Of a DNA stretch of 64,000 nt, positions 15,779 to 63,271 are shown in pieces. The DNA is from Phorcus lineatus (Eukaryota; Mollusca; Gastropoda; Trochida; Trochidae). Location of the stretch: the NCBI GenBank assembly GCA_921293015.1, contig OV121089.1:39542520-39606519 (forward strand). The letters are read 5' to 3'. Each line of letters opens with the position of its first letter. Positions within the stretch are counted from its first letter, which is position 1. The notes below the pieces were generated by a model. It saw only the letters and a program-made list of their open reading frames with translations. It was not told the origin of the DNA and searched no databases. A program made the position numbers and the translations under genes.

Positions 15779-17568
15779 CCACCGATTTTGTCGCCGCGAT
15801 TTAGCCAAAACCGCTAAAGCTATTACAGCCAAACTTGCCAGTCTTGTAGAGCTTCATGAGACAAAGCCACAATAAGCTTTTGGGCTTAATCGGCTTAAGC
15901 GTTAAAGGCACAGTAGCATCCAAAGTGCGAAAAATTAACATGGGAAAAATTTTCAAAATGCACTTAGAGACTTGCAACTTTTTTTAAACGATGCACAGTA
16001 ACAATGCAAGCAAAAAAGTCAATCATGGCAAATTCGTAGCATGAGTACTTTGGCCGCCATATTGCTTTAATTAACTTTTTGAAATTTCCGGACCCCATGC
16101 ATCTTTGAGAATCTTCTCCTCTGAAGATACATGCAATTAAGAGCTGAAACTCACATATATCATAGCTAAAGGAATGGGGAGAAAATTCATTTTGGAAAAT
16201 TTTCATTTTTCTGAATACTTTTTCTTCTGCAACCCTTCAAAGTCGGGCGACTTTGCTCGTTTTAGCATATTCAAGGGCAGATAACTCAAAAACCTACCCG
16301 TCGAATTTAATGAATTTTGCATGAGAGGTAAACATGATCGAGGTCATTAAGAATCAAGAATAAAATGGATCGCGAACAGTCATTTCAGTTCACACGAGGG
16401 AGTCAAAGTTTGCATCATACTATATGTCAATTAAGTGCGTTAGCAAGGGTTAAATTGCAAACAATTGAAGGAAAACATCAATATTGAAGAACGGTCAAGA
16501 CGTGTGACATGTCCAAATGCAGGTACATGCGCTCTTGCATGTGTGAAAGGGCAGAAGTTGACAGAAATACTCTACATTGCTCTTGTAGCAAGATTCGCTG
16601 AGTGCGTTAGCAAGGGTTAATTTGAAAAGTTGAAGGAAAACACCCTTCCTGTCAAGACATGCGACATGGGGCAGAAGTTCGAAGAAATACTCTTCGATGT
16701 CTTATGAATTATCACGTAATTGACAGTCTAGAGAAGGCCGAAATGGCTTTATGCAGCAGAAGTCCGTACGACTGGACGTATGGACAGCGTGCGCGAGATG
16801 AGCAAATGCACACAAGTGCGTCAAGCACTGTCAAAATCTGATCAGACAGGCAGAGAAGCGAGCAAAAAAGCCTGCCTGACTGACCTGAGCTGACTGACTG
16901 ACATAGTCTTGATTATTTATATATATAAAGATCCTCAACCTATGTACCAGCATTCGGGAACTATATTCCAGTGTCGGCAAAGCACCTGATCACGCTGAAG
17001 GAAAACACTAACCCTTTTTCAACTTTCAAACCTCTACTGCCTCCCCTCCACATACCCCTTACATTATGATGTTCTTGCTTTCTTGCCTCAACTGCCAGCA
17101 GGCCGTGTACATCGAGTAAACCTCACTTCCGCTCCTATGTCTCGCTACGTACTGAAAACGTATACAAAACGTCATTTTCCTTCAGAATACGGCTAAATCA
17201 ACTGCAGTGCACTAAAATTGTCTTCAAAACGCTATCTAAACTTGGAAAAGCACTTACTTTGCCCCCAAGAGCCACGGGTGCTCATATTTTGCTGAATCCT
17301 GTCATTGTCGTCGCTTGCGACTATATTGTACACATGCCTGCAATACCTATTGGAATCAAGGCAATAAGAGACCAATAAAGTCTAGAAAAATGCAAAATCA
17401 GTCTAACAGTCTTTCTCAAGTCTTATTTAACGACATACAACCTTAAAATGCCAATATTTCCTAAAATTATTAAGGATTCAGCAGAAATGCTGAATCCTTA
17501 TTGTTATTGGCGTGTTTTATTATTAAGGATTCAGCAAATTTTGCTGAATCCTTATTGTTATTGGCGTG

Positions 17569-17611
<43 letters not shown>

Positions 17612-17626
17612 TTTTTTTTTTTTATT
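15779..17626 (+). repeat. Satellite unit A10, two J modules at its end
   Basis: 1,848 bp, haplotype A-A-G-A-C; the A at 16491 and A at 595-equivalent are the B-class states. It ends with two J hairpins instead of one: 17471-17500 (GAAA loop, usual for A) and 17524-17554 (arms ending in AAA/TTT). A long (ATT)n and poly-T follow, then unit E. Confidence 0.94.
17471..17626 (+). repeat. Double J module preceding unit E
   Basis: Two tandem hairpin modules with different loops sit in the ATT tract. The first has the GAAA loop found at every other A junction. The second, nearest E, has 15-bp arms around a single T. The junction after E (near 19061-19084) has no hairpin. Confidence 0.93.
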
Positions 17627-19084
17627 CCACGATTCTTGTTAACAAGATTCAGCCAAAACCGCTAAAGCTGTTAAAGCCAAACTTACCAGCCTGGTAGAGC
17701 TCTATGAGGAGATCCTGCAATAAGCTTTTGGGCTTAATCGGCTTAAGCGTTAAAGGCACAGTACCATCCAAAGTTTGAAAAATTAACATGGGAAAAATTT
17801 TCAAAATGCACTTAGAGACTTGCAACTTTTTTTAAACGATAGCCAATAACATTGCAAGCAAAAAAGTAAATCATGGTGAATTCGTAGCATGAATACTTTC
17901 GCCGCCATATTGCTTTTTTTGACGTTTTGAAATTTCCGGACCCTATGCATCTTTGAGAATCTTCTTCTCTGAAGATACTTGCATCTTAGAGCTGAAACTC
18001 TCCAATTGTGCAGTGGAGGCATTGGGTATTTCATGGTCTTTTTGAGTTTGATGAAAATTTAATATTTATTTCTCGGCAACCCTGCAAAGTCGGGCGACTT
18101 AGCTCATATAAGCATGTTCGAGGGGCGATAACTGAAAAAGTTAGACTCACAATTGCAATAATTTTTCAGGAATGTAAGACCGGTATGTGGACTTGCAGAA
18201 ACATTTAAAACATTGATCGCGAACAGTCATTATCGTTCACAATAATCGATCAAAAACAGCAAAAATATGGTTAAAAAAAAATAACATGGGCAATTTTTAC
18301 AAAATTAACATAGAGACCTGAAACTTGTTTTGAATGAAGCGTAATAACAGTATGAACAAAAAAGTCAATCATGACGATTTCCTAACTATTATAGTTTTTG
18401 CACATTATCAACTTATTTGTTCCAGAAATTGCTTTTCAACAATCGACAATTCTTGTTAACACGATTCAGCCAAAACCGCTCATGCTATTACAGCCAAACT
18501 TGCGAGTCTGATAGAATTGCATGAGACGACGCCACAATAAGCTTTTAGGTTTCATCGGATTAAGCGTTAAAGGCACAGTACGATCGAAAGTTCGAAAAAT
18601 TAACATAGGTTATTTTTTCAAAATGCACTTAGAGACTTGCAACTTGTTTTAAACGACAGGCAATTAGATTTGGAACAAATAAGTAAATCATGGCAAATTC
18701 GTAGCGTCAATAGTTTGGCCGCCATATTGCTTTTACTGATTTTTTAGATGCATCTTAAAAAATCTTCTTCTCTGAAGATACTTGCATCTAAGAGCTCAAA
18801 CTCTCCAATAATGTAGCTGAGACATTGGGAATTTCAGGGTCATTCAGATTTTGATGTCAGTCCAATATTTTTTTCTTACCACTTCTTTGCAAAAACCGGA
18901 GTATGCTTTGGAGATAAGGTTAGATGAAAGTTGCTGCTGTAGATTAATGCATGCTCCAATCTTCATGAAAATTTCAGTGAAGCTGGCTAACATCACTATG
19001 TTTGTACTGAATGTGCTTTTTATGCGCTGAATCCTTTTGTCGTCGCTTGCGACTATATTTATTATTATTATTTTTTTTTTTATT
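17627..19084 (+). repeat. Diverged satellite unit E, built of three related blocks
   Basis: A 1,458-bp unit starting CCACGATTCTTGTTAAC instead of the usual start. It is related to the C units along its length (shared AAAAACAGCAAAAATATGG, shared 3' region with TTTTTATGCGCTGAATCC) but is longer and more diverged. It contains the unit core three times in degenerate form: about 17627-18265, about 18270-18435 (partial) and about 18444-18900. It ends with the common 3' palindrome, TATATTT and ATT with no J hairpin. It looks like an older relative of C; only one copy is in this window. Confidence 0.85.
18444..18900 (+). repeat. Third core block inside unit E
   Basis: Starts CGACAATTCTTGTTAACAC and then follows the core order: GATTCAGCC, CACAATAAGCTTTT, TTAAGCGTTAAAGGCACAG, CGAAAAATTAACAT, CAAAATGCACTTAGAGAC, GGCCGCCATATTGC, GAAGATACTTGCATC. 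It keeps the GGCCGCCATATTGC to GAAGATAC part that the equivalent C-unit block has lost, so E preserves the fuller ancestral monomer. Confidence 0.8.
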
Positions 19085-20854
19085 CCACCGATTTTGTCGC
19101 CGCGATTTAGCCAAAACCGCTAAAGCTATTACAGCCAAACTTGCCAGTCTTGTAGAGCTTCATGAGACAAAGCCACAATAAGCTTTTGGGCTTAATCGGC
19201 TTAAGCGTTAAAGGCACAGTAGCATCCAAAGTGCGAAAAATTAACATGGGAAAAATTTTCAAAATGCACTTAGAGACTTGCAACTTTTTTTAAACGATGC
19301 ACAGTAACAATGCAAGCAAAAAAGTCAATCATGGCAAATTCGTAGCATGAGTACTTTGGCCGCCATATTGCTTTAATTAACTTTTTGAAATTTCCGGACC
19401 CCATGCATCTTTGAGAATCTTCTCCTCTGAAGATACATGCAATTAAGAGCTGAAACTCACATATATCATAGCTAAAGGAATGGGGAGAAAATTCATTTTG
19501 GAAAATTTTCATTTTTCTGAATACTTTTTCTTCTGCAACCCTTCAAAGTCGGGCGACTTTGCTCGTTTTAGCATATTCAAGGGCAGATAACTCAAAAACC
19601 TACCCGTCGAATTTCATGAATTTTGCATGAGAGGTAAACATGATCGAGGTCATTAAGAATCAAGAATAAAATGGATCGCGAACAGTCATTTCAGTTCACA
19701 CGAGGGAGTCAAAGTTTGCATCATACTATATGTCAATTAAGTGCGTTAGCAAGGGTTAAATTGCAAACAATTGAAGGAAAACATCAATATTGAAGATCGG
19801 TCAAGACGTGTGACATGTCCAAATGCAGGTCCATGCGCTCTTGCATGTGTGAAAGGGCAGAAGTTGACAGAAATACTCTACATTGCTCTTGTAGCAAGAT
19901 TCGCTGAGTGCGTTAGCAAGGGTTAATTTGAAAAGTTGAAGGAAAACACCCTTCCTGTCAAGACATGCGACATGGGGCAGAAGTTCGAAGAAATACTCTT
20001 CGATGTCTTATGAATTATCACGTAATTGACAGTCTAGAGAAGGCCGAAATGGCTTTATGCAGCAGAAGTCCGTACGACTGGACGTATGGACAGCGTGCGC
20101 GAGATGAGCAAATGCACACAAGTGCGTCAAGCACTGTCAAAATCTGATCAGACAGGCAGAGAAGCGAGCAAAAAAGCCTGCCTGACTGACCTGAGCTGAC
20201 TGACTGACATAGTCTTGATTATTTATATATATAAAGATCCTCAACCTATGTACCAGCATTCGGGAACTATATTCCAGTGTCGGCAAAGCACCTGATCACG
20301 CTGAAGGAAAACACTAACCCTTTTTCAACTTTCAAACCTCTACTGCCTCCCCTCCACATACCCCTTACATTATGATGTTCTTGCTTTCTTGCCTCAACTG
20401 CCAGCAGGCCGTGTACATCGAGTAAACCTCACTTCCGCTCCTATGTCTCGCTACGTACTGAAAACGTATACAAAACGTCATTTTCCTTCAGAATACGGCT
20501 AAATCAACTGCAGTGCACTAAAATTGTCTTCAAAACGCTATCTAAACTTGGAAAAGCACTTACTTTGCCCCCAAGAGCCACGGGTGCTCATATTTTGCTG
20601 AATCCTGTCATTGTCGTCGCTTGCGACTATATTGTACACATGCCTGCAATACCTATTGGAATCAAGGCAATAAGAGACCAATAAAGTCTAGAAAAATGCA
20701 AAATCAGTCTAACAGTCTTTCTCAAGTCTTATTTAACGACATACAACCTTAAAATGCCAATATTTCCTAAAATTATTAAGGATTCAGCAGAAATGCTGAA
20801 TCCTTATTGTTATTGGCGTGTTTTATTATTATTATTATTATTTTTTTTTTTATT
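19085..20854 (+). repeat. Satellite unit A11
   Basis: 1,770 bp, haplotype T-C-G-A-C, with a private C at 19615 where the other A copies have A. No J hairpin directly upstream. J hairpin at its end 20777-20806. Confidence 0.95.
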
Positions 20855-26164: not shown

Positions 26165-27729
26165 CCACCGATTTTGTCGCCGCGATTTAGCCAAAACCGC
26201 TAAAGCTATTACAGCCAAACTTGCCAGTCTTGTAGAGCTTCATGAGACAAAGCCACAATAAGCTTTTGGGCTTAATCGGCTTAAGCGTTAAAGGCACAGT
26301 AGCATCCAAAGTGCGAAAAATTAACATGGGAAAAATTTTCAAAATGCACTTAGAGACTTGCAACTTTTTTTAAACGATGCACAGTAACAATGCAAGCAAA
26401 AAAGTCAATCATGGCAAATTCGTAGCATGAGTACTTTGGCCGCCATATTGCTTTAATTAACTTTTTGAAATTTCCGGACCCCATGCATCTTTGAGAATCT
26501 TCTCCTCTGAAGATACATGCAATTAAGAGCTGAAACTCACATATATCATAGCTAAAGGAATGGGGAGAAAATTCATTTTGGAAAATTTTCATTTTTCTGA
26601 ATACTTTTTCTTCTGCAACCCTTCAAAGTCGGGCGACTTTGCTCGTTTTAGCATATTCAAGGGCAGATAACTCAAAAACCTACCCGTCGAATTTAATGAA
26701 TTTTGCATGAGAGGTAAACATGATCGAGGTCATTAAGAATCAAGAATAAAATGGATCGCGAACAGTCATTTCAGTTCACACGAGGGAGTCAAAGTTTGCA
26801 TCATACTATATGTCAATTAAGTGCGTTAGCAAGGGTTAAATTGCAAACAATTGAAGGAAAACATCAATATTGAAGATCGGTCAAGACGTGTGACATGTCC
26901 AAATGCAGGTCCATGCGCTCTTGCATGTGTGAAAGGGCAAAAGTTGACAGAAATACTCTGCATTGCTCTTGTAGCAAGATTCGCTGAGTGCGTTAGCAAG
27001 GGTTAATTTGAAAAGTTGAAGGAAAACACCCTTCCTGTCAAGACATGCGACATGGGGCAGAAGTTCGAAGAAATACTCTTCGATGTCTTATGAATTATCA
27101 CGTAATTGACAGTCTAGAGAAGGCCGAAATGGCTTTATGCAGCAGAAGTCCGTACGACTGGACGTATGGACAGCGTGCGCGAGATGAGCAAATGCACACA
27201 AGTGCGTCAAGCACTGTCAAAATCTGATCAGACAGGCAGAGAAGCGAGCAAAAAAGCCTGCCTGACTGACCTGAGCTGACTGACTGACATAGTCTTGATT
27301 ATTTATATATATAAAGATCCTCAACCTATGTACCAGCATTCGGGAACTATATTCCAGTGTCGGCAAAGCACCTGATCACGCTGAAGGAAAACACTAACCC
27401 TTTTTCAACTTTCAAACCTCTACTGCCTCCCCTCCACATACCCCTTACATTATGATGTTCTTGCTTTCTTGCCTCAACTGCCAGCAGGCCGTGTACATCG
27501 AGTAAACCTCACTTCCGCTCCTATGTCTCGCTACGTACTGAAAACGTATACAAAACGTCATTTTCCTTCAGAATACGGCTAAATCAACTGCAGTGCACTA
27601 AAATTGTCTTCAAAACGCTATCTAAACTTGGAAAAGCACTTACTTTGCCCCCAAGAGCCACGGGTGCTCATATTTTGCTGAATCCTGTCATTGTCGTCGC
27701 TTGCGACTATATTTATTATTATTTTTCTT
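26165..27729 (+). repeat. Satellite unit A15, ends at the element terminus
   Basis: 1,565 bp, haplotype T-C-A-G-C. It stops right after GTCGCTTGCGACTATATTT and a short ATT tract: the 143-bp A tail and the J hairpin are both absent, and B1 begins. This is the last A unit and marks the A to B switch. The clean stop shows where the element's 3' end lies. Confidence 0.94.
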
Positions 27730-29374
27730 CCACCGATTTTGTCGCCGCGATTCAGCCAATACCGCTGAAGCGATGACAGCCAAACTCGACAGACTGATAG
27801 ACCTTCATGAGACGAAGCCGCAATAAGCTTTTGGGCTCAATCGGCTTAAGCGTTAAAGGCACAGTACGATCCAAAGTTCGAAAAATTAACATGGGAAATT
27901 TTTTCAAAATGCACTTAGAGACTTGCAACTTTTTGCAAACGATGCACAGTAACAATTCAAGCAAAAAAGTCAATCATGGCAAATTCGTAACATGAGTACT
28001 TTGGCCGCCATATTGCTTTAATTAACTTTTTGAAATTTCCGGACCCCATGCATCTTTGAGAATCTTCTCCTCAGAAGATACATGCAAGTAAGAGCTGAAA
28101 CTCACATATATCATAGCTAAAGGAATGGGGAGAAAATTCATTTTGGAAAATTTTCATTTTTCTGAATACTTTTTCTTCTGCAACCCTTCAAAGTCGGGCG
28201 ACTTTGCTCGTTTTAGAATATTCAAGGGCAGATAACTCAAAAACCTACCCGTCGAATTTAATGAATTTTGCATGAGAGGTAAACATGATCGAGGTCATTA
28301 AGAATCATGAATAAAATGGATCGCGAACAGTCATTTCAGTTCACAGGAGGGAGTCAAAGTTTGCATCATACTATATGTCAATTAAGTGCGTTAGCAAGGG
28401 TTAAATTGCAAACAGTTGAAGGAAAACATCAATATTGAAGAACGGTCAAGACGTGTGACATGTCCAAATGCAGGTACATGCGCTCTTGCATGTGTGAACG
28501 GGCAAAAGTTGACAGAAATACTCTACATTGCTCTTGTATCAAGATTCGTTACGTGCGTTAGCAAGGGTAAATTTGAAAAGTTGAAGGAAAACTGTCAAGA
28601 TATGCGACATGGGGCAAAGTTTGAGAGAAATACTCTTTGATGTCTTATAAACAAGCACGTAATCGACAGTCTACAGAGGGACGAAATCGCTCTTTGGAGC
28701 AAAAATCCGTACGACTGCACGTATGGTCGACGTGTGCGAGAAGACCAAAAGCATGCAAGTGCGTCAGTAACTGTCAAAATCTCATCAGACAGGCAGAGAA
28801 GCGAGCAAAAAAGCCTGCCTGACTGACCTGACCTGAGTGACTGACATAGTCTTGATTATTTATATATATAAAGATCCTCAACCTATGTACCAGCATTCGG
28901 GAACTATATTCCAGTGTCGGCAAACCACTTGATCACGCCAAAGGAAAACACTAGCCCTTTTTCAACTTTCAAACCTCTACTGCCTCCCCTCCACATACCC
29001 CTTACATTGTGATGTTGTTACTTTCTTGCCTCAACTGGCAGCAGGCCGTGTACATCGAGTAAACCTCACTTCCGCTCCTATGTCTCGCTACGTACTGAAA
29101 ACGTATACAAAACGTCACTTAGCTTCAGAATACGGCTAAATCAACTGCAGTGCACTAAAAATGTCTTCAAAACGCTATCTAAACTTGGAAAAGCACTTAC
29201 TTTGCCCCCAAGAGCCACGGGTGCTCATATTTTGCTGAATCCTGTCATTGTCGTCGCTTGCGACTATATTTAAGGATTCAGCAAATTTTGCTGAATCCTT
29301 ATTGTTATTGGCGTGTTTTATTATTATTATTAAGGATTCAGCAGAAATGCTGAATCCTTATTGTTATTGGCGTG

Positions 29375-29408
<34 letters not shown>

Positions 29409-35776: not shown

Positions 35777-37501
35777 CCACCGATTTTGTCGCCGCGATTC
35801 AGCCAATACCGCTGAAGCGATGACAGCCAAACTCGACAGACTGATAGACCTTCATGAGACGAAGCCGCAATAAGCTTTTGGGCTCAATCGGCTTAAGCGT
35901 TAAAGGCACAGTACGATCCAAAGTTCGAAAAATTAACATGGGAAATTTTTTCAAAATGCACTTAGAGACTTGCAACTTTTTGCAAACGATGCACAGTAAC
36001 AATTCAAGCAAAAAAGTCAATCATGGCAAATTCGTAACATGAGTACTTTGGCCGCCATATTGCTTTAATTAACTTTTTGAAATTTCCGGACCCCATGCAT
36101 CTTTGAGAATCTTCTCCTCAGAAGATACATGCAAGTAAGAGCTGAAACTCACATATATCATAGCTAAAGGAATGGGGAGAAAATTCATTTTGGAAAATTT
36201 TCATTTTTCTGAATACTTTTTCTTCTGCAACCCTTCAAAGTCGGGCGACTTTGCTCGTTTTAGAATATTCAAGGGCAGATAACTCAAAAACCTACCCGTC
36301 GAATTTAATGAATTTTGCATGAGAGGTAAACATGATCGAGGTCATTAAGAATCATGAATAAAATGGATCGCGAACAGTCATTTCAGTTCACAGGAGGGAG
36401 TCAAAGTTTGCATCATACTATATGTCAATTAAGTGCGTTAGCAAGGGTTAAATTGCAAACAGTTGAAGGAAAACATCAATATTGAAGAACGGTCAAGACG
36501 TGTGACATGTCCAAATGCAGGTACATGCGCTCTTGCATGTGTGAACGGGCAAAAGTTGACAGAAATACTCTACATTGCTCTTGTATCAAGATTCGTTACG
36601 TGCGTTAGCAAGGGTAAATTTGAAAAGTTGAAGGAAAACTGTCAAGATATGCGACATGGGGCAAAGTTTGAGAGAAATACTCTTTGATGTCTTATAAACA
36701 AGCACGTAATCGACAGTCTACAGAGGGACGAAATCGCTCTTTGGAGCAAAAATCCGTACGACTGCACGTATGGTCGACGTGTGCGAGAAGACCAAAAGCA
36801 TGCAAGTGCGTCAGTAACTGTCAAAATCTCATCAGACAGGCAGAGAAGCGAGCAAAAAAGCCTGCCTGACTGACCTGACCTGAGTGACTGACATAGTCTT
36901 GATTATTTATATATATAAAGATCCTCAACCTATGTACCAGCATTCGGGAACTATATTCCAGTGTCGGCAAACCACTTGATCACGCCAAAGGAAAACACTA
37001 GCCCTTTTTCAACTTTCAAACCTCTACTGCCTCCCCTCCACATACCCCTTACATTGTGATGTTGTTACTTTCTTGCCTCAACTGGCAGCAGGCCGTGTAC
37101 ATCGAGTAAACCTCACTTCCGCTCCTACGTACTGAAAACGTATACAAAACGTCACTTTGCTTCAGAATACGGCTAAATCAACTGCAGTGCACTAAAAATG
37201 TCTTCAAAACGCTATCTAAACTTGGAAAAGCACTTAGTTTGCCCCCAAGAGCCACGGGTGCTCATATTTTGCTGAATCCTGTCATTGTCGTCGCTTGCGA
37301 CTATATTTAAGGATTCAGCAAATTTTGCTGAATCCTTATTGTTATTGGCGTGTTTTATTATTATTATTAAGGATTCAGCAGAAATGCTGAATCCTTATTG
37401 TTATTGGCGTGTTTTATTATTATTAAGGATTCAGCAGAAATGCTGAATCCTTATTGTTATTGGCGTGTTTTATTATTATTATTATTATTATTATTTTTCT
37501 T
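35777..37501 (+). repeat. Satellite unit B5, triple J
   Basis: 1,725 bp, common B subtype, no J hairpin directly upstream. Its end has three hairpins (37308-37338, 37368-37397, 37424-37453). The third has a GAAA loop, unlike the third hairpin before C units. Confidence 0.94.
37308..37501 (+). repeat. Triple J module preceding D
   Basis: Normal B pair plus a second GAAA-loop hairpin. The extra hairpin, nearest D, has the loop type typical of A units, and D itself is A-like. Confidence 0.92.
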
Positions 37502-39249
37502 CCACCGATTTTGTGGACACGATTTAGCCCAAACCGCTGAAGCGATTACAGCCAAACTTGTCAGTCTTGTAGAGCTTCATGAGACAAAGCCACAATAAGC
37601 TTTTGGGCTTAATCGGCTTAAGCGTTAAAGGCACAGTAGCATCCAAAGTGCGAAAAATTAACATGGGAAAAATTTTCAAAATGCACTTAGAGACTTGCAA
37701 CTTTTTTTAAACGATGCACAGTAACAATGCAAGCAAAAAAGTCAATCATGGCAAATTCGTAGCATGAGTACTTTGGCCGCCATATTGCTTTAATTAACTT
37801 TTTGAAATTTCCGGACCCAATGCATCTTTGAAAATCTTCTTCTCTGAAGATACATGCAATTGAGAGCTGAAACTCAGATATATGACAGCTGAAGGAGTGG
37901 GGAGAACATTCATTTTGGAAAACTTGCATTTTTGTTAATACTTTTTTTTCTGCAACCCTTCAAAGTCAGGCGACTTTGCTCGTTTTAGCATATTCAAGGG
38001 CAGATAACTCAAAAACCTACCCGTCGAATTTTATGAATTTTGCATGAGAGGTAAACATGATCGAGGTCATTAAGAATCAAGAATAAAATGGATCGCGAAC
38101 AGTCATTTCTGTTCACATGAGGGAGTCCAAGTTTGCATTATACTATATGTCAATTAAGTGCGTTAGCAAGGGTTAAATTGCAGTCAGTTGAAGGGAAACA
38201 CACTCTAGCGTGATAAAATGCAGATATGCACCCCCCCCCCCCCCCCCCCCCAAATGCCCCCTCACCTGTTCAAAAGCAGATGGGAACGTGAGCAGAAGTC
38301 TTACAGTGCTCCTGTAGCAAGATTCGTCAAGTGCGTTAGCAAGGGTTAGATTGCATAGAATTGAAGGAAAACATCAATATTGAAGAACGGTCAAGACGTG
38401 TGACATGTCCAAGTGAAGGTACATGCGCTCTTGTATGTGTGAAAGGGCAAAAGTTGACAGAATTACTCTACATGGCTCTTGTATCAAGATTCTCTAAATG
38501 CGTTAGCAAGGGGTAATTTGAAAAGTTGAAGGAAAACACCCTTCCTGTCAAGATATACGGACATGGGGCAAAGTTTGAGAGAAATACTCTCCGATGTCTC
38601 ATGAACAAGCACGTATTTGCCAGTGTACAGAAGCACGAAATCGCTCTTTGAAGCAGAAGTCCGTACGACTGGACGTATGGACAGCGTGCGCGAGATGAGC
38701 AAATGCAAGCAAGTGCGTCAAGAGCTGTCAAAATCTGATCAGACAGGCAGAGAAGCGAGCAAAAAAGCCTGCCTGACTGATCTGAGCTGACTGACTGACA
38801 TAGTCTTGATTATTTATATATGTAAAGATCCTCAACCTATGTACCAGCATTCGGGAACTATATTCCAGTGTCGGCAAAGCACCTGATCACGCTGAAGGAA
38901 AACACTAACCCTTTTTCAACTTTCAAACCTCTACTGCCTCCCCTCCACATACCCCTTACATTATGATGTTCTTGCTTTCTTGCCTCAACTGCCAGCAGGC
39001 CGTGTACATCGAGTAAACCTCACTTCCGCTCCTATGTCTCGCTACGTACTGAAAACGTATACAAAACGTCATTTTGCTTCAGAATACGGCTAAATCAACT
39101 GCAGTGCACTAAAATTGTCTTCAAAACGCTATCTAAACTTGGAAAAGCACTTAGTTTGCCCCCAAGAGCCACGGTTGCTCATATTTTGCTGAATCCTGTC
39201 ATTGTCGTCGCTTGCGACTATATTTATTATTATTATTATTATTTTTCTT
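37502..39249 (+). repeat. Satellite unit D, A-like, with an extra subrepeat and poly-C
   Basis: 1,748 bp. It opens CCACCGATTTTGTGGACACG, then follows A (GTAGCATCCAAAGTGCG, seven-T run) with many private changes. The 167-bp subrepeat occurs three times, starting near 38157, 38330 and 38497; the first copy is the most diverged and contains the poly-C run. It ends GCGACTATATTT then ATT without the A tail and without a J hairpin. It keeps TATATGTAAAG near 38815. Confidence 0.9.
38231..38251 (+). repeat. 21-bp poly-C tract
   Basis: An uninterrupted run of 21 C inside the first subrepeat of unit D; the minus strand is a G run able in principle to form a quadruplex. Unique in this window. Its exact length is uncertain because homopolymers are prone to sequencing error. 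Confidence 0.85.
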
Positions 39250-45613: not shown

Positions 45614-47301
45614 CCACCGATTTTGTCGCCGCGATTCAGCCAATACCGCTGAAGCGATGACAGCCAAACTCGACAGACTGATAGACCTTCATGAGACGAA
45701 GCCGCAATAAGCTTTTGGGCTCAATCGGCTTAAGCGTTAAAGGCACAGTACGATCCAAAGTTCGAAAAATTAACATGGGAAATTTTTTCAAAATGCACTT
45801 AGAGACTTGCAACTTTTTGCAAACGATGCACAGTAACAATTCAAGCAAAAAAGTCAATCATGGCAAATTCGTAACATGAGTACTTTGGCCGCCATATTGC
45901 TTTAATTAACTTTTTGAAATTTCCGGACCCCATGCATCTTTGAGAATCTTCTCCTCAGAAGATACATGCAAGTAAGAGCTGAAACTCACATATATCATAG
46001 CTAAAGGAATGGGGAGAAAATTCATTTTGGAAAATTTTCATTTTTCTGAATACTTTTTCTTCTGCAACCCTTCAAAGTCGGGCGACTTTGCTCGTTTTAG
46101 AATATTCAAGGGCAGATAACTCAAAAACCTACCCGTCGAATTTAATGAATTTTGCATGAGAGGTAAACATGATCGAGGTCATTAAGAATCATGAATAAAA
46201 TGGATCGCGAACAGTCATTTCAGTTCACAGGAGGGAGTCAAAGTTTGCATCATACTATATGTCAATTAAGTGCGTTAGCAAGGGTTAAATTGCAAACAGT
46301 TGAAGGAAAACATCAATATTGAAGAACGGTCAAGACGTGTGACATGTCCAAATGCAGGTACATGCGCTCTTGCATGTGTGAACGGGCAAAAGTTGACAGA
46401 AATACTCTACATTGCTCTTGTATCAAGATTCGTTACGTGCGTTAGCAAGGGTAAATTTGAAAAGTTGAAGGAAAACTGTCAAGATATGCGACATGGGGCA
46501 AAGTTTGAGAGAAATACTCTTTGATGTCTTATAAACAAGCACGTAATCGACAGTCTACAGAGGGACGAAATCGCTCTTTGGAGCAAAAATCCGTACGACT
46601 GCACGTATGGTCGACGTGTGCGAGAAGACCAAAAGCATGCAAGTGCGTCAGTAACTGTCAAAATCTCATCAGACAGGCAGAGAAGCGAGCAAAAAAGCCT
46701 GCCTGACTGACCTGACCTGAGTGACTGACATAGTCTTGATTATTTATATATATAAAGATCCTCAACCTATGTACCAGCATTCGGGAACTATATTCCAGTG
46801 TCGGCAAACCACTTGATCACGCCAAAGGAAAACACTAGCCCTTTTTCAACTTTCAAACCTCTACTGCCTCCCCTCCACATACCCCTTACATTGTGATGTT
46901 GTTACTTTCTTGCCTCAACTGGCAGCAGGCCGTGTACATCGAGTAAACCTCACTTCCGCTCCTACGTACTGAAAACGTATACAAAACGTCACTTTGCTTC
47001 AGAATACGGCTAAATCAACTGCAGTGCACTAAAAATGTCTTCAAAACGCTATCTAAACTTGGAAAAGCACTTAGTTTGCCCCCAAGAGCCACGGGTGCTC
47101 ATATTTTGCTGAATCCTGTCATTGTCGTCGCTTGCGACTATATTTAAGGATTCAGCAAAATTTGCTGAATCCTTATTGTTATTGGCGTGTTTTATTATTA
47201 TTATTAAGGATTCAGCAGAAATGCTGAATCCTTATTGTTATTGGCGTGTTTTATTATTAAGGATTCAGCAGAAATGCTGAATCCTTATTGTTATTGGCGT
47301 G

Positions 47302-47332
<31 letters not shown>

Positions 47333-47338
47333 TTTCTT
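45614..47338 (+). repeat. Satellite unit B9, triple J with a changed loop
   Basis: 1,725 bp. Triple J cluster 47145-47338: first hairpin (47145-47175) has A instead of T at its centre, then two GAAA-loop hairpins (47205-47234, 47258-47287). Confidence 0.94.
47145..47338 (+). repeat. Triple J module preceding B10
   Basis: Normal B pair (first with an inverted centre base) plus a second GAAA hairpin next to B10. The junction after B10 has none. Confidence 0.92.
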
Positions 47339-48895
47339 CCACCGATTTTGTCGCCGCGATTCAGCCAATACCGCTGAAGCGATGACAGCCAAACTCGACA
47401 GACTGATAGACCTTCATGAGACGAAGCCGCAATAAGCTTTTGGGCTCAATCGGCTTAAGCGTTAAAGGCACAGTACGATCCAAAGTTCGAAAAATTAACA
47501 TGGGAAATTTTTTCAAAATGCACTTAGAGACTTGCAACTTTTTGCAAACGATGCACAGTAACAATTCAAGCAAAAAAGTCAATCATGGCAAATTCGTAAC
47601 ATGAGTACTTTGGCCGCCATATTGCTTTAATTAACTTTTTGAAATTTCCGGACCCCATGCATCTTTGAGAATCTTCTCCTCAGAAGATACATGCAAGTAA
47701 GAGCTGAAACTCACATATATTATAGCTAAAGGAATGGGGAGAAAATTCATTTTGGAAAATTTTCATTTTTCTGAATACTTTTTCTTCTGCAACCCTTCAA
47801 AGTCGGGCGACTTTGCTCGTTTTAGAATATTCAAGGGCAGATAACTCAAAAACCTACCCGTCGAATTTAATGAATTTTGCATGAGAGGTAAACATGATCG
47901 AGGTCATTAAGAATCATGAATAAAATGGATCGCGAACAGTCATTTCAGTTCACAGGAGGGAGTCAAAGTTTGCATCATACTATATGTCAATTAAGTGCGT
48001 TAGCAAGGGTTAAATTGCAAACAGTTGAAGGAAAACATCAATATTGAAGAACGGTCAAGACGTGTGACATGTCCAAATGCAGGTACATGCGCTCTTGCAT
48101 GTGTGAACGGGCAAAAGTTGACAGAAATACTCTACATTGCTCTTGTATAAAGATTCGTTACGTGCGTTAGCAAGGGTAAATTTGAAAAGTTGAAGGAAAA
48201 CTGTCAAGATATGCGACATGGGGCAAAGTTTGAGAGAAATACTCTTTGATGTCTTATAAACAAGCACGTAATCGACAGTCTACAGAGGGACGAAATCGCT
48301 CTTTGGAGCAAAAATCCGTACGACTGCACGTATGGTCGACGTGTGCGAGAAGACCAAAAGCATGCAAGTGCGTCAGTAACTGTCAAAATCTCATCAGACA
48401 GGCAGAGAAGCGAGCAAAAAAGCCTGCCTGACTGACCTGACCTGACTGACTGACATAGTCTTGATTATTTATATATGTAAAGATCCTCAACCTATGTACC
48501 AGCATTCGGGAACTATATTCCAGTGTCGGCAAAGCACTTGATCACGCCAAAGGAAAACACTAGGCCTTTTTCAACTTTCAAACCTCTACTGCCTCCCCTC
48601 CACATACCCCTTACATTATGATGTTGTTACTTTCTTGCCTCAACTGCCAGCAGGCCGTGTACATCGAGTAAACCTCACTTCCGCTCCTATGTCTCGCTAC
48701 GTACTGAAAACGTATACAAAACGTCACTTAGCTTCAGAATACGGCTAAATCAACTGCAGTGCACTAAAAATGTCTTCAAAACGCTATCTAAACTTGGAAA
48801 AGCACTTACTTTGCCCCCAAGAGCCACGGGTGCTCATATTTTGCTGAATCCTGTCATTGTCGTCGCTTGCGACTATATTTATTATTATTTTTCTT
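47339..48895 (+). repeat. Satellite unit B10, alternative subtype, no J at end
   Basis: 1,557 bp. Alternative subtype from about 48446. Private changes include ATATTATAGC near 47720 and TTGTATAAAG near 48149. Ends GCGACTATATTT plus a short ATT tract directly against B11. Confidence 0.94.
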
Positions 48896-50530
48896 CCACC
48901 GATTTTGTCGCCGCGATTCAGCCAATACCGCTGAAGCGATGACAGCCAAACTCGACAGACTGATAGACCTTCATGAGACGAAGCCGCAATAAGCTTTTGG
49001 GCTCAATCGGCTTAAGCGTTAAAGGCACAGTACGATCCAAAGTTCGAAAAATTAACATGGGAAATTTTTTCAAAATGCACTTAGAGACTTGCAACTTTTT
49101 GCAAACGATGCACAGTAACAATTCAAGCAAAAAAGTCAATCATGGCAAATTCGTAACATGAGTACTTTGGCCGCCATATTGCTTTAATTAACTTTTTGAA
49201 ATTTCCGGACCCCATGCATCTTTGAGAATCTTCTCCTCAGAAGATACATGCAAGTAAGAGCTGAAACTCACATATATCATAGCTAAAGGAATGGGGAGAA
49301 AATTCATTTTGGAAAATTTTCATTTTTCTGAATACTTTTTCTTCTGCAACCCTTCAAAGTCGGGCGACTTTGCTCGTTTTAGAATATTCAAGGGCAGATA
49401 ACTCAAAAACCTACCCGTCGAATTTAATGAATTTTGCATGAGAGGTAAACATGATCGAGGTCATTAAGAATCATGAATAAAATGGATCGCGAACAGTCAT
49501 TTCAGTTCACAGGAGGGAGTCAAAGTTTGCATCATACTATATGTCAATTAAGTGCGTTAGCAAGGGTTAAATTGCAAACAGTTGAAGGAAAACATCAATA
49601 TTGAAGAACGGTCAAGACGTGTGACATGTCCAAATGCAGGTACATGCGCTCTTGCATGTGTGAACGGGCAAAAGTTGACAGAAATACTCTACATTGCTCT
49701 TGTATCAAGATTCGTTACGTGCGTTAGCAAGGGTAAATTTGAAAAGTTGAAGGAAAACTGTCAAGATATGCGACATGGGGCAAAGTTTGAGAGAAATACT
49801 CTTTGATGTCTTATAAACAAGCACGTAATCGACAGTCTACAGAGGGACGAAATCGCTCTTTGGAGCAAAAATCCGTACGACTGCACGTATGGTCGACGTG
49901 TGCGAGAAGACCAAAAGCATGCAAGTGCGTCAGTAACTGTCAAAATCTCATCAGACAGGCAGAGAAGCGAGCAAAAAAGCCTGCCTGACTGACCTGACCT
50001 GAGTGACTGACATAGTCTTGATTATTTATATATATAAAGATCCTCAACCTATGTACCAGCATTCGGGAACTATATTCCAGTGTCGGCAAACCACTTGATC
50101 ACGCCAAAGGAAAACACTAGCCCTTTTTCAACTTTCAAACCTCTACTGCCTCCCCTCCACATACCCCTTACATTGTGATGTTGTTACTTTCTTGCCTCAA
50201 CTGGCAGCAGGCCGTGTACATCGAGTAAACCTCACTTCCGCTCCTACGTACTGAAAACGTATACAAAACGTCACTTTGCTTCAGAATACGGCTAAATCAA
50301 CTGCAGTGCACTAAAAATGTCTTCAAAACGCTATCTAAACTTGGAAAAGCACTTAGTTTGCCCCCAAGAGCCACGGGTGCTCATATTTTGCTGAATCCTG
50401 TCATTGTCGTCGCTTGCGACTATATTTAAGGATTCAGCAAATTTTGCTGAATCCTTATTGTTATTGGCGTGTTTTATTATTATTATTAAGGATTCAGCAG
50501 AAATGCTGAATCCTTATTGTTATTGGCGTG

Positions 50531-50561
<31 letters not shown>

Positions 50562-50567
50562 TTTCTT
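48896..50567 (+). repeat. Satellite unit B11
   Basis: 1,672 bp, common subtype, no J upstream, double J cluster 50427-50567. Confidence 0.95.
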
Positions 50568-52202
50568 CCACCGATTTTGTCGCCGCGATTCAGCCAATAC
50601 CGCTGAAGCGATGACAGCCAAACTCGACAGACTGATAGACCTTCATGAGACGAAGCCGCAATAAGCTTTTGGGCTCAATCGGCTTAAGCGTTAAAGGCAC
50701 AGTACGATCCAAAGTTCGAAAAATTAACATGGGAAATTTTTTCAAAATGCACTTAGAGACTTGCAACTTTTTGCAAACGATGCACAGTAACAATTCAAGC
50801 AAAAAAGTCAATCATGGCAAATTCGTAACATGAGTACTTTGGCCGCCATATTGCTTTAATTAACTTTTTGAAATTTCCGGACCCCATGCATCTTTGAGAA
50901 TCTTCTCCTCAGAAGATACATGCAAGTAAGAGCTGAAACTCACATATATCATAGCTAAAGGAATGGGGAGAAAATTCATTTTGGAAAATTTTCATTTTTC
51001 TGAATACTTTTTCTTCTGCAACCCTTCAAAGTCGGGCGACTTTGCTCGTTTTAGAATATTCAAGGGCAGATAACTCAAAAACCTACCCGTCGAATTTAAT
51101 GAATTTTGCATGAGAGGTAAACATGATCGAGGTCATTAAGAATCATGAATAAAATGGATCGCGAACAGTCATTTCAGTTCACAGGAGGGAGTCAAAGTTT
51201 GCATCATACTATATGTCAATTAAGTGCGTTAGCAAGGGTTAAATTGCAAACAGTTGAAGGAAAACATCAATATTGAAGAACGGTCAAGACGTGTGACATG
51301 TCCAAATGCAGGTACATGCGCTCTTGCATGTGTGAACGGGCAAAAGTTGACAGAAATACTCTACATTGCTCTTGTATCAAGATTCGTTACGTGCGTTAGC
51401 AAGGGTAAATTTGAAAAGTTGAAGGAAAACTGTCAAGATATGCGACATGGGGCAAAGTTTGAGAGAAATACTCTTTGATGTCTTATAAACAAGCACGTAA
51501 TCGACAGTCTACAGAGGGACGAAATCGCTCTTTGGAGCAAAAATCCGTACGACTGCACGTATGGTCGACGTGTGCGAGAAGACCAAAAGCATGCAAGTGC
51601 GTCAGTAACTGTCAAAATCTCATCAGACAGGCAGAGAAGCGAGCAAAAAAGCCTGCCTGACTGACCTGACCTGAGTGACTGACATAGTCTTGATTATTTA
51701 TATATATAAAGATCCTCAACCTATGTACCAGCATTCGGGAACTATATTCCAGTGTCGGCAAACCACTTGATCACGCCAAAGGAAAACACTAGCCCTTTTT
51801 CAACTTTCAAACCTCTACTGCCTCCCCTCCACATACCCCTTACATTGTGATGTTGTTACTTTCTTGCCTCAACTGGCAGCAGGCCGTGTACATCGAGTAA
51901 ACCTCACTTCCGCTCCTACGTACTGAAAACGTATACAAAACGTCACTTTGCTTCAGAATACGGCTAAATCAACTGCAGTGCACTAAAAATGTCTTCAAAA
52001 CGCTATCTAAACTTGGAAAAGCACTTAGTTTGCCCCCAAGAGCCACGGGTGCTCATATTTTGCTGAATCCTGTCATTGTCGTCGCTTGCGACTATATTTA
52101 AGGATTCAGCAAATTTTGCTGAATCCTTATTGTTATTGGCGTGTTTTATTATTATTATTAAGGATTCAGCAGAAATGCTGAATCCTTATTGTTATTGGCG
52201 TG

Positions 52203-52233
<31 letters not shown>

Positions 52234-52239
52234 TTTCTT
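50568..52239 (+). repeat. Satellite unit B12
   Basis: 1,672 bp, double J cluster 52099-52239. Confidence 0.95.
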
Positions 52240-53874: not shown

Positions 53875-53905
<31 letters not shown>

Positions 53906-53911
53906 TTTCTT
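52240..53911 (+). repeat. Satellite unit B13
   Basis: 1,672 bp, double J cluster 53771-53911. Confidence 0.95.
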
Positions 53912-55546: not shown

Positions 55547-55577
<31 letters not shown>

Positions 55578-55583
55578 TTTCTT
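53912..55583 (+). repeat. Satellite unit B14
   Basis: 1,672 bp, double J cluster 55443-55583. First unit of a 4,680-bp higher-order block. Confidence 0.95.
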
Positions 55584-57299: not shown

Positions 57300-58591
57300 C
57301 CACCGATTTTGTCGCCGCGATTAAGCCAAAACCGCTAAAGCTATTAAAGCCAAACTTACCAGTCTTGTAGAGCTTCATGAGACAAAGCCGCAATAAGCTT
57401 TTGGGCTTAATTGGCTTAAGCGTTAAAGGCACAGTACCATCCAAAGTTCGAAAAATTAACATGGGAAAAATTTTCAAAATGCACTTAGAGACTTGCAACT
57501 TTTTTTAAACGATGCACAGTAACATTGTAAGCAAAAAAGTCAATCATGGCAAATTCGTAGCATCAGCAGTTTGGCCGCCATATTGCTTTAATTAACTTTT
57601 TGAAATTTACGGACCCCATGCATCTTTGAGAATCTTCTTCTCTGAAGATACTTGCATCTAAGAGCTGAAATTCATACTCAATGTAGCTGAAGCATTGTAA
57701 TTTTGAATTTATATTTTTCAAGGTCCTAACATTAAAACTTTTTTCTCAGCAACCCTGCAAAGTCGGGCGACATAGCTCATATAAGCATGTTCAAGGGGCG
57801 ATAACTCAAAAAGTTAGACTCACAATTGCAATATTTTTTCAGGAATGTAAGACCAGTATGTTCACTTACAGAAACTGTTAAAACATTGATCGCGAACAGT
57901 CAATTTCGTTCACAATAAACGATCAAAAACAGCAAAAATATGGTTACAAAAAAATAACATGGGCAATTTTTTCAAAATGCACTTAGAGACCTGAAACTTG
58001 TTTTGAATGAAGCGTAATAACAGTATGAACAAAAAAGTCAATCATGACGATTTCCTAACTATTATAGTTTTTGCACAATATCAACTTATTTGTTCCAGAA
58101 ATTGCTTGTCATGATTCGACGATTCTTGTTAACACGATTCAGCCAAAACCGCTCAAGCTATTACAGCCAAAGTTACCAGTCTGATAGAACTGCATGAGAT
58201 AAAGCCACAATAACCTTTTGGGCTTAATCGGCTTAAGCGTTAAAGGCACAGTACGATCCAAATTTCGAAAAATTAACATGGGATTTTTTTTCAAAATGCA
58301 TTTGGAGACCTGTAAGTTGTTTTAAACGATAGGCAATTACATCACGAGCAAAAAAGCAAATCACGGCGAATTCCTAAGTAGCATACTTTTTCCACATTAT
58401 CAACTTCTTTGCAATAATCGCAATTTTCAGATAAAACATGCCGCTGAAGCTTAATGCATGCACCAATCTTCATGAAATTTTCAGAGAAGGTAGCTAACAT
58501 CACTATCTTTGTACTGAATGTGCTTTTTATGCGCTGAATCCTTTTGTCGTCGCTTGCGACTATATTTATTATTATTATTATTATTTTTCTT
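57300..58591 (+). repeat. Satellite unit C3
   Basis: 1,292 bp, indistinguishable from C1 and C4 by eye. No J at its end. Confidence 0.93.
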
Positions 58592-60226
58592 CCACCGATT
58601 TTGTCGCCGCGATTCAGCCAATACCGCTGAAGCGATGACAGCCAAACTCGACAGACTGATAGACCTTCATGAGACGAAGCCGCAATAAGCTTTTGGGCTC
58701 AATCGGCTTAAGCGTTAAAGGCACAGTACGATCCAAAGTTCGAAAAATTAACATGGGAAATTTTTTCAAAATGCACTTAGAGACTTGCAACTTTTTGCAA
58801 ACGATGCACAGTAACAATTCAAGCAAAAAAGTCAATCATGGCAAATTCGTAACATGAGTACTTTGGCCGCCATATTGCTTTAATTAACTTTTTGAAATTT
58901 CCGGACCCCATGCATCTTTGAGAATCTTCTCCTCAGAAGATACATGCAAGTAAGAGCTGAAACTCACATATATCATAGCTAAAGGAATGGGGAGAAAATT
59001 CATTTTGGAAAATTTTCATTTTTCTGAATACTTTTTCTTCTGCAACCCTTCAAAGTCGGGCGACTTTGCTCGTTTTAGAATATTCAAGGGCAGATAACTC
59101 AAAAACCTACCCGTCGAATTTAATGAATTTTGCATGAGAGGTAAACATGATCGAGGTCATTAAGAATCATGAATAAAATGGATCGCGAACAGTCATTTCA
59201 GTTCACAGGAGGGAGTCAAAGTTTGCATCATACTATATGTCAATTAAGTGCGTTAGCAAGGGTTAAATTGCAAACAGTTGAAGGAAAACATCAATATTGA
59301 AGAACGGTCAAGACGTGTGACATGTCCAAATGCAGGTACATGCGCTCTTGCATGTGTGAACGGGCAAAAGTTGACAGAAATACTCTACATTGCTCTTGTA
59401 TCAAGATTCGTTACGTGCGTTAGCAAGGGTAAATTTGAAAAGTTGAAGGAAAACTGTCAAGATATGCGACATGGGGCAAAGTTTGAGAGAAATACTCTTT
59501 GATGTCTTATAAACAAGCACGTAATCGACAGTCTACAGAGGGACGAAATCGCTCTTTGGAGCAAAAATCCGTACGACTGCACGTATGGTCGACGTGTGCG
59601 AGAAGACCAAAAGCATGCAAGTGCGTCAGTAACTGTCAAAATCTCATCAGACAGGCAGAGAAGCGAGCAAAAAAGCCTGCCTGACTGACCTGACCTGAGT
59701 GACTGACATAGTCTTGATTATTTATATATATAAAGATCCTCAACCTATGTACCAGCATTCGGGAACTATATTCCAGTGTCGGCAAACCACTTGATCACGC
59801 CAAAGGAAAACACTAGCCCTTTTTCAACTTTCAAACCTCTACTGCCTCCCCTCCACATACCCCTTACATTGTGATGTTGTTACTTTCTTGCCTCAACTGG
59901 CAGCAGGCCGTGTACATCGAGTAAACCTCACTTCCGCTCCTACGTACTGAAAACGTATACAAAACGTCACTTTGCTTCAGAATACGGCTAAATCAACTGC
60001 AGTGCACTAAAAATGTCTTCAAAACGCTATCTAAACTTGGAAAAGCACTTAGTTTGCCCCCAAGAGCCACGGGTGCTCATATTTTGCTGAATCCTGTCAT
60101 TGTCGTCGCTTGCGACTATATTTAAGGATTCAGCAAATTTTGCTGAATCCTTATTGTTATTGGCGTGTTTTATTATTATTATTAAGGATTCAGCAGAAAT
60201 GCTGAATCCTTATTGTTATTGGCGTG

Positions 60227-60257
<31 letters not shown>

Positions 60258-60263
60258 TTTCTT
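58592..60263 (+). repeat. Satellite unit B16
   Basis: 1,672 bp, no J upstream, double J cluster 60123-60263. Confidence 0.95.
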
Positions 60264-61979
60264 CCACCGATTTTGTCGCCGCGATTCAGCCAATACCGCT
60301 GAAGCGATGACAGCCAAACTCGACAGACTGATAGACCTTCATGAGACGAAGCCGCAATAAGCTTTTGGGCTCAATCGGCTTAAGCGTTAAAGGCACAGTA
60401 CGATCCAAAGTTCGAAAAATTAACATGGGAAATTTTTTCAAAATGCACTTAGAGACTTGCAACTTTTTGCAAACGATGCACAGTAACAATTCAAGCAAAA
60501 AAGTCAATCATGGCAAATTCGTAACATGAGTACTTTGGCCGCCATATTGCTTTAATTAACTTTTTGAAATTTCCGGACCCCATGCATCTTTGAGAATCTT
60601 CTCCTCAGAAGATACATGCAAGTAAGAGCTGAAACTCACATATATCATAGCTAAAGGAATGGGGAGAAAATTCATTTTGGAAAATTTTCATTTTTCTGAA
60701 TACTTTTTCTTCTGCAACCCTTCAAAGTCGGGCGACTTTGCTCGTTTTAGAATATTCAAGGGCAGATAACTCAAAAACCTACCCGTCGAATTTAATGAAT
60801 TTTGCATGAGAGGTAAACATGATCGAGGTCATTAAGAATCATGAATAAAATGGATCGCGAACAGTCATTTCAGTTCACAGGAGGGAGTCAAAGTTTGCAT
60901 CATACTATATGTCAATTAAGTGCGTTAGCAAGGGTTAAATTGCAAACAGTTGAAGGAAAACATCAATATTGAAGAACGGTCAAGACGTGTGACATGTCCA
61001 AATGCAGGTACATGCGCTCTTGCATGTGTGAACGGGCAAAAGTTGACAGAAATACTCTACATTGCTCTTGTATCAAGATTCGTTACGTGCGTTAGCAAGG
61101 GTAAATTTGAAAAGTTGAAGGAAAACTGTCAAGATATGCGACATGGGGCAAAGTTTGAGAGAAATACTCTTTGATGTCTTATAAACAAGCACGTAATCGA
61201 CAGTCTACAGAGGGACGAAATCGCTCTTTGGAGCAAAAATCCGTACGACTGCACGTATGGTCGACGTGTGCGAGAAGACCAAAAGCATGCAAGTGCGTCA
61301 GTAACTGTCAAAATCTCATCAGACAGGCAGAGAAGCGAGCAAAAAAGCCTGCCTGACTGACCTGACCTGAGTGACTGACATAGTCTTGATTATTTATATA
61401 TATAAAGATCCTCAACCTATGTACCAGCATTCGGGAACTATATTCCAGTGTCGGCAAACCACTTGATCACGCCAAAGGAAAACACTAGCCCTTTTTCAAC
61501 TTTCAAACCTCTACTGCCTCCCCTCCACATACCCCTTACATTGTGATGTTGTTACTTTCTTGCCTCAACTGGCAGCAGGCCGTGTACATCGAGTAAACCT
61601 CACTTCCGCTCCTACGTACTGAAAACGTATACAAAACGTCACTTTGCTTCAGAATACGGCTAAATCAACTGCAGTGCACTAAAAATGTCTTCAAAACGCT
61701 ATCTAAACTTGGAAAAGCACTTAGTTTGCCCCCAAGAGCCACGGGTGCTCATATTTTGCTGAATCCTGTCATTGTCGTCGCTTGCGACTATATTTAAGGA
61801 TTCAGCAAATTTTGCTGAATCCTTATTGTTATTGGCGTGTTTTATTATTATTATTAAGGATTCAGCAGAAATGCTGAATCCTTATTGTTATTGGCGTGTT
61901 TTATTATTATTAAGGATTCAGCAATTTTGCTGAATCCTTATTGTTATTGGCGTGTTTTATTATTATTTTTTTTTTTATT
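60264..61979 (+). repeat. Satellite unit B17, triple J
   Basis: 1,716 bp, triple J cluster 61795-61979 ending in the C-specific hairpin. Confidence 0.95.
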
Positions 61980-63271
61980 CCACCGATTTTGTCGCCGCGA
62001 TTAAGCCAAAACCGCTAAAGCTATTAAAGCCAAACTTACCAGTCTTGTAGAGCTTCATGAGACAAAGCCGCAATAAGCTTTTGGGCTTAATTGGCTTAAG
62101 CGTTAAAGGCACAGTACCATCCAAAGTTCGAAAAATTAACATGGGAAAAATTTTCAAAATGCACTTAGAGACTTGCAACTTTTTTTAAACGATGCACAGT
62201 AACATTGTAAGCAAAAAAGTCAATCATGGCAAATTCGTAGCATCAGCAGTTTGGCCGCCATATTGCTTTAATTAACTTTTTGAAATTTACGGACCCCATG
62301 CATCTTTGAGAATCTTCTTCTCTGAAGATACTTGCATCTAAGAGCTGAAATTCATACTCAATGTAGCTGAAGCATTGTAATTTTGAATTTATATTTTTCA
62401 AGGTCCTAACATTAAAACTTTTTTCTCAGCAACCCTGCAAAGTCGGGCGACATAGCTCATATAAGCATGTTCAAGGGGCGATAACTCAAAAAGTTAGACT
62501 CACAATTGCAATATTTTTTCAGGAATGTAAGACCAGTATGTTCACTTACAGAAACTGTTAAAACATTGATCGCGAACAGTCAATTTCGTTCACAATAAAC
62601 GATCAAAAACAGCAAAAATATGGTTACAAAAAAATAACATGGGCAATTTTTTCAAAATGCACTTAGAGACCTGAAACTTGTTTTGAATGAAGCGTAATAA
62701 CAGTATGAACAAAAAAGTCAATCATGACGATTTCCTAACTATTATAGTTTTTGCACAATATCAACTTATTTGTTCCAGAAATTGCTTGTCATGATTCGAC
62801 GATTCTTGTTAACACGATTCAGCCAAAACCGCTCAAGCTATTACAGCCAAAGTTACCAGTCTGATAGAACTGCATGAGATAAAGCCACAATAACCTTTTG
62901 GGCTTAATCGGCTTAAGCGTTAAAGGCACAGTACGATCCAAATTTCGAAAAATTAACATGGGATTTTTTTTCAAAATGCATTTGGAGACCTGTAAGTTGT
63001 TTTAAACGATAGGCAATTACATCACGAGCAAAAAAGCAAATCACGGCGAATTCCTAAGTAGCATACTTTTTCCACATTATCAACTTCTTTGCAATAATCG
63101 CAATTTTCAGATAAAACATGCCGCTGAAGCTTAATGCATGCACCAATCTTCATGAAATTTTCAGAGAAGGTAGCTAACATCACTATCTTTGTACTGAATG
63201 TGCTTTTTATGCGCTGAATCCTTTTGTCGTCGCTTGCGACTATATTTATTATTATTATTATTATTTTTCTT
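61980..63271 (+). repeat. Satellite unit C4
   Basis: 1,292 bp, matches C3. Ends without J against B18. Confidence 0.93.

Follow-up and report, generated by a model that had tools for sequence, protein, structure and literature searches.

How do the units of a tandem array come to carry one hairpin too many at certain junctions and none at the very next? The question is raised by a 64,000-nucleotide stretch of the genome of the gastropod Phorcus lineatus (GCA_921293015.1, contig OV121089.1, positions 39,542,520 to 39,606,519), here called the window, which is an array of non-coding units all on one strand. A complete unit has, in order, a hairpin that we call J, TTATTGTTATTGGCGTG, a tract of (ATT)n, a core, and then TGCTGAATCC or CGCTGAATCC ... 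GTCGTCGCTTGCGACTATATT. The window is very probably made up of non-autonomous Helentrons (HINEs), nested and amplified in tandem, with newcomers landing in the (ATT)n of their kin. Below, contig C1, C2, C12 and so on denote contigs of the assembly, contig C15 being that of the window, and insert C1 to insert C4 denote units within the window.

The window holds 53 J hairpins and 38 exact 3′ ends. In the A array (1–27,713, + strand) single-J units, mostly of 1,770 bp, are each followed by a non-element spacer of 142 bp (141 bp in one case) before the next J. The B array (29,271–63,246, +) consists of double-J units, the end of one joined to the J of the next without a spacer, and contains inserts C1, D, C2, B10, C3 and C4. 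A B unit as a rule opens with an outer J with an E-type loop, (ATT)4, an inner J with a GAAA loop and (ATT)9, and the ordinary example at 50,426–52,098 (+), which has this order, continues through the core and the 3′ subterminal repeat to the palindrome GTCGCttGCGAC and TATATT. Class A cores differ from each other by 0–5 mismatches, and class B comprises at least 12 identical cores as well as variants in which 10 bp are inserted; the core of D is nearer to A, and C and E form one family. Read in order, the junctions of the A part carry one J nine times, then 2, 0, and again one J four times; those of the B part carry 0, 2, 2, 2, 3, 0, 3, 0, 3, 0, 2, 2, 3, 0, 2, 2, 2, 2, 3, 0, 2, 3 and 0. The usual number is one at A junctions and two at B junctions, in agreement with the initial annotation of this DNA.

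Seven junctions exceed the usual number, beginning at 17,327, 34,299, 37,307, 40,790, 47,144, 57,114 and 61,794, and each time the junction directly next has no J. In 200,000 permutations of the counts, made within the A part (n = 15 junctions) and the B part (n = 23), none placed every excess directly before a zero, which rules out a random placement of the excess hairpins. All seven of the pairs first described are thus present, but the list of zeros was incomplete: an eighth, at 27,713, lies where the end of A15 abuts the tract of B1 (27,714–29,270, +), a unit without J. The A array continues upstream of the window, with 12 spacer matches spaced by 1,770 or 1,764 bp reaching at least to contig C15:39,520,913 (∼21.6 kb before the window; 5 kb of it, locus L043, was read), and the partner of the zero junction at 27,713 would lie upstream, beyond the stretch read.

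The seven places themselves point to insertion. At all seven the boundaries of the intruder are element termini, as expected for the mobile form J-(ATT)n-core-end that had been proposed. We then cut out the intruder from AAGG to TATATTT and summed the ATT counts on its left and right. Insert E (17,525–19,060, +; a J with an AATTT loop, (ATT)13, core and 3′ end) sits in the tract of A11, and its excision gives 2 + 4 = 6 ATT, equal to the allele of A12–A15, which share the same T9 run. The J of the host A11, with a GAAA loop, lies at 17,470–17,499 (+), parted from its own core by E, and the remainder of the A11 tract follows directly past the end of E, at the zero-J junction at 19,060–19,082 (+). 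Inserts C1 (34,417–35,752, in the B5 tract), C3 (57,232–58,567, in B16) and C4 (61,912–63,247, in B18; all +) each give 3 + 6 = 9 ATT, the normal B value, as does insert D (37,425–39,225, +, with an A-like core, in B6). Inserts C1, C3 and C4 are identical over 1,336 bp and are one event copied, with identical left flanks of 3,346 bp between C3 and C4 and of only 266 bp between C1 and C3. The seven places therefore represent at most five independent insertions, of which three restore the tract total exactly and a fourth falls within host variation.

The loop of the extra hairpin had been said to fit the class of the intruder. It does so for C (ATTT) and E (AATTT), the only classes that loops distinguish, but is uninformative for D and B10, since GAAA is common to A, D, B10 and the inner J of B. 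Given that specificity, duplication of J as the sole cause is ruled out for C and E, yet such duplication seems to occur elsewhere (contig C1:46.58–46.60 Mb). A B unit contains 168 TT on the + strand and 195 on the other, and its main tract holds 15; that every event landed in the main tract by chance is unlikely, with the reservation that copies lost or rearranged elsewhere would escape notice. Insertion into the (ATT)n of kin, in the orientation of the host, is well supported.

Insertions of the same kind occur elsewhere in the 957.8 Mb of the genome (74 contigs). Genome-wide, 279 of 1,329 exact 3′ ends run directly into (ATT)4, TATTATTATTATT, none runs into (AAT)4 within 1–4 bases, and a search with one pattern found no nesting in opposite orientation. 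T-T occurs on one strand only of (ATT)n, and because this polar target exists on that strand alone, the shared orientation of the nests needs no special rule. Clusters were counted with exact patterns on contigs C1, C2, C5, C7, C9 and C11, where the matches appear complete, from the first 100 of 299 end-tract-core matches and the first 100 of 263 J-J matches. None of the 58 clusters mixes strands. Both signatures occur in 25 clusters, J-J only in 22 and zeros only in 11; where both occur, the J-J stack stands before the first zero in 24 of 25. The target is wider than the element's own tract: copies also occupy other ATT microsatellites, as well as the tract of K elements, a second HINE-like family. 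K elements carry TAGGTCTTCAAGACAAAGTCTGGAAGACCTATTG as their 5′ module and have an ATT tract; GTCTTGAAGACCT and the palindrome ACTGCCttGGCAGT, after which comes CCTAG, mark their 3′ end. The K 5′ module has 260 exact matches genome-wide, some of them stacked, and cross-nesting goes both ways, with J nests within K tracts and K within J tracts; none of the K motifs searched for was found in the window. The outermost 5′ flanks inspected end in TT in 14 of 14 cases, with one exception elsewhere (L008), the right side of insertions has 2–5 T, and at repeat sites where the tract total is conserved there is no target duplication.

Isolated copies show what the units look like outside arrays. Twenty stretches were fetched, chosen for a 3′ end running into ATT, and as L074 extends L059 they represent 19 loci. 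Of these, six consist of a solitary copy carrying a single J (L058, L064, L065, L067, L068 and L069), as had been anticipated for the mobile form; L058, L064, L068 and L069 are flanked by ATT on both sides, and their left flanks are by eye what we take to be tails of short interspersed elements (SINEs). Of nine bounded nests, six balance: a three-deep nest with three J, three ends and non-element DNA on both sides (L071); one of the form ( ( )( ) ), also with three J and three ends (L072); and four with two J and two ends, namely L066, L059 + L074 with a K element between, and L061 and L073, both inside a K tract. At L059 no host J was seen at first; nesting predicted one upstream of the K element, and on extension it was found there. 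Four further loci (L060, L063, L070 and L075) do not close within the stretch read. Copies lacking a 5′ J had been named as the counter-case: the six solitary copies all carry it, but among the first eight loci J is not clearly present at two (only its tail at L003, and nothing within 1.5 kb at L004), and the J of L062 is truncated.

Judged by their anatomy, the units appear to be HINEs, as their features fit the published description. J is a 5′ subterminal repeat with an inverted repeat, (ATT)n between J and the core is the left-flank microsatellite, and the window has no open reading frame of at least 120 aa, in keeping with the lack of coding capacity of HINEs. The subterminal inverted repeats are GGATTCAGCA (5′ end) and TGCTGAATCC (near the 3′ end); the A/B 3′ end has 10 bp of this repeat and the C/E 3′ end 9 bp, slightly less than the published 12–15 bp in a mite and 11–12 bp in the oyster, where the 5′ one lies 2–4 nt from the end (PMC4067079; Cg_HINE, PMC7492417). 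The 3′ palindrome has 5-bp arms and stops 6 nt from the end, nearer than the published 8–35 bp; the published HINE target is T-rich with at least two T on each side and no target duplication. The available passages of these papers describe, as shared with the J family, the 5′ subterminal repeat with inverted repeat, the left-flank microsatellite, the 3′ subterminal repeat and palindrome, a T-rich/TT target, variable terminal Ts, the absence of target duplication, and clusters; insertion into their own microsatellite, orientation-locked nests and stacked 5′ modules, all found in the J family, are not described for HINEs in those passages. The units are not canonical Helitrons (5′ TC, 3′ CTRR, insertion between A and T), as they start with (T)TAAGG and end with TATATT; the A-T target alone remains compatible, the terminal Ts being ambiguous. 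One 21-base end pattern gave two matches in another collection of genome contigs, judged from context to be chance, and none in a collection of viral contigs.

Candidate autonomous relatives are present in the same genome, which has 53 Helitron_like_N matches in open frames of up to 2,661 aa. Probing with 501 bp that lie immediately upstream of a single J-type 3′ end, without the 3′ subterminal repeat and palindrome, gave 12 strong loci (14 rows) among the best 40 of 291 candidates, ten at 89–100% identity and two at 76%. With 33 of the 53 matches entered in the comparison, each of the 12 has a Helitron_like_N match 6.5–10.7 kb upstream on its own strand, and none of the six weaker rows tested, out of 28, has one. 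By eye, all 12 show a PIF1 match too, which for 11 of them lies in an open frame equal in length to the frame with the Helitron_like_N match. With a 201-bp probe that includes the 3′ end, nine of the 12 loci align to the last base (best 40 of 1,035 candidates). Two loci with Helitron_like_N and PIF1 flank the window on contig C15, at 39,455,550 and 39,673,860 (+), on the strand of the window, ∼87 kb upstream and ∼67 kb downstream of it, with open frames of 2,533 and 2,661 aa. The autonomous copy at contig C1:46.57 Mb has a run of 200 N at its 5′ junction. We also note that four autonomous 3′ regions, on contigs C32, C25, C15 and C1, are 100% identical over 501 bp and lie at the same distance of 6,649 bp from the Rep match, which suggests recent movement or duplication.

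Several observations weigh against insertion into the tracts of kin as a full account. Excising insert C2 (40,911–42,245, +, in the B7 tract; core 23 mismatches from that of insert C1) gives 4 + 6 = 10 ATT, one more than the usual 9, a number that one B unit has; excising insert B10 (47,259–48,880, +, in the B11 tract), with its B-like core and single J, gives 2 + 3 = 5 and not the 9 of the host. Three bounded nests are unbalanced (L062, with a truncated J and two ends; L076, four J and three ends; L077, two J and three ends). Contig C12:32.56–32.59 Mb (32.561–32.591) lists 20 consecutive zero junctions ∼1,562–1,566 bp apart, with units of ATT tract, core and end, and all 13 that were read lack J; contig C2:14.53–14.58 Mb opens with four stacked J, after which 13 zeros are listed. 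J modules also multiply without a zero partner, as in the 22 J-J-only clusters and the double or triple J of the contig C1 array. Three of the 12 autonomous relatives (C29, C25:19.59 Mb and C32:3.52 Mb) diverge in the last 35 bases, within the 3′ subterminal repeat, and the likeness of the relatives to the J family, as far as they were read, lies in the 3′ region.

The initial annotation had excess and zero junctions pairing one to one, like brackets. A strict law of this kind is rejected by the J-less arrays, the extra J stacks, the unbalanced nests and the double-J units, the outer J of every double-J B unit being, strictly counted, an unclosed bracket. Only six of nine bounded nests balance, the numbers of J-J and zeros are equal in just 9 of the 25 clusters with both, and there are besides the clusters with one signature only. 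At L060, L061 and L066 real stacks escape the exact patterns, and the mismatch in counts is to that extent overstated.

Could the pattern arise with no transposition into tracts at all, if J modules and cores were reordered by unequal crossing-over and conversion between ATT tracts within a tandem array already present? We consider this unlikely. The tracts are natural exchange points, inserts C1, C3 and C4 are indeed copies, and exchange or amplification does take place, as is evident from J-less arrays and J stacks; but both boundaries of each intruder in the window lie exactly at element termini and not at random points of the tract, and nests are also found isolated on other contigs. Still less probable are rolling-circle concatemers in which starts and stops were missed within one replication product. 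The B array has end-to-J joints without spacer, A units with the same spacer occur on three contigs, and tandem Helitron arrays and multiple 5′ ends are reported in the parts of the literature cited below. Against this, the intruder differs in class from its host (C, E or D in A or B), the total of the split tract is conserved, and K elements lie in J tracts, just as K tracts contain J nests. That an assembly error made the junction pattern is scarcely credible, for although the identity of many B cores could have made unit number or order wrong in the assembly, the same structure recurs at isolated loci and the signatures number in the hundreds.

For insertion into the tracts of kin, followed by amplification, the following course is the most probable. 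Elements enter T-T sites, without target duplication (where testable). Since (ATT)n offers T-T sites densely packed and on a single strand, a newcomer lands in the tract of another copy, facing the same way, and supplies a fresh ATT tract of its own. The insertion parts the host J from the host core, leaving an extra J upstream and a zero junction downstream. Mobilisation may be due to Rep/helicase elements in this genome whose 3′ end is shared with the units. In double-J units such as B, transposition may begin at the outer 5′ end and halt at the first inner 3′ end, and rolling-circle concatemers or unequal exchange may multiply units, including copied nests (C1/C3/C4) and the J-less arrays elsewhere.

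Parts of this scheme have precedents. Self-insertion and multiple 5′ ends are already published for Fusarium Helitrons (PMC5148889), for which the passages available describe Helitron2 composites with one nested copy and several 5′ ends with one 3′ end, like B units, and the same model of an outer start and an inner stop; unlike the J family, they give no microsatellite target, few cases and no large nested arrays. Nested copies are also a source of extra termini in maize, where the accessible text concerns canonical Helitrons with multiple 3′ ends and not 5′ stacks, and no tract (PMC3288121). SaTar arrays of guayule and rice resemble the J family in that mixed families insert into microsatellites, but they are Mutator-like and, according to the abstract, uniformly non-nested (PMC5907723). 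The tract of the J family lies inside the element, and its arrays therefore nest: a SaTar-type array, whose elements never interrupt one another (PMC5907723), does not describe the window, as J elements interrupt each other at the internal tract. Rolling-circle elements in a microsatellite are also known, to judge from a title cited in PMC4344730 (Coates 2010), from Lepidoptera, where Helitron-like elements disrupt (GAAA)n. Plant centromeric Helitrons (Xiong 2016, as summarised in part of PMC12628747) likewise form tandem arrays in which numerous 5′ ends go with one 3′ end, but from copies truncated by rolling-circle errors and not from tract insertions. Our literature search, mostly of titles and the beginnings of abstracts, found no report of Helentrons or Helitrons that target their own microsatellite, and an internal microsatellite serving as landing pad for kin on a genome scale is apparently new.

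How transposons are converted to satellite DNA is an open question, for which rolling-circle errors, exchange and insertion preference are among the proposals in the section of PMC12628747 seen. Here the stacked 5′ hairpins and split ATT tracts keep a legible order of insertion, and a single simple rule accounts for the common orientation. We suggest tentatively, at somewhat less than even confidence, that (ATT)n is a self-propagating landing pad: the target grows with each insertion, strand polarity locks orientation, and at least two families, J and K, share the pads and cross-nest in them. A dispersed rolling-circle element would in this way give rise to directional higher-order satellite arrays by an autocatalytic route driven by transposition, and stacked 5′ modules would record the order of insertion. 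Because the four identical autonomous 3′ regions suggest recent movement, the idea is testable by polymorphism between living individuals.

Three minor observations concern the arrays. The core of insert D (37,500–39,224) differs from A mainly by one extra stretch of 173 bp that contains a long C run. Arrays of A units with an identical 142-bp spacer are found on three contigs, at 1–27,713 of the window (C15), C9:43.867–43.896 Mb and C1:46.580–46.610 Mb, with 13, 14 and 13 spacer matches respectively (best 40 of 78 candidates) and one extra J per unit in the C1 array; the recurrence of unit and spacer together on C15, C9 and C1 suggests that a circle or concatemer containing the spacer has moved from one chromosome to another. 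Finally, around the last of these, at contig C1:46.47–46.65 Mb, J and K modules are mixed over ∼180 kb, all of the listed matches being on the minus strand.

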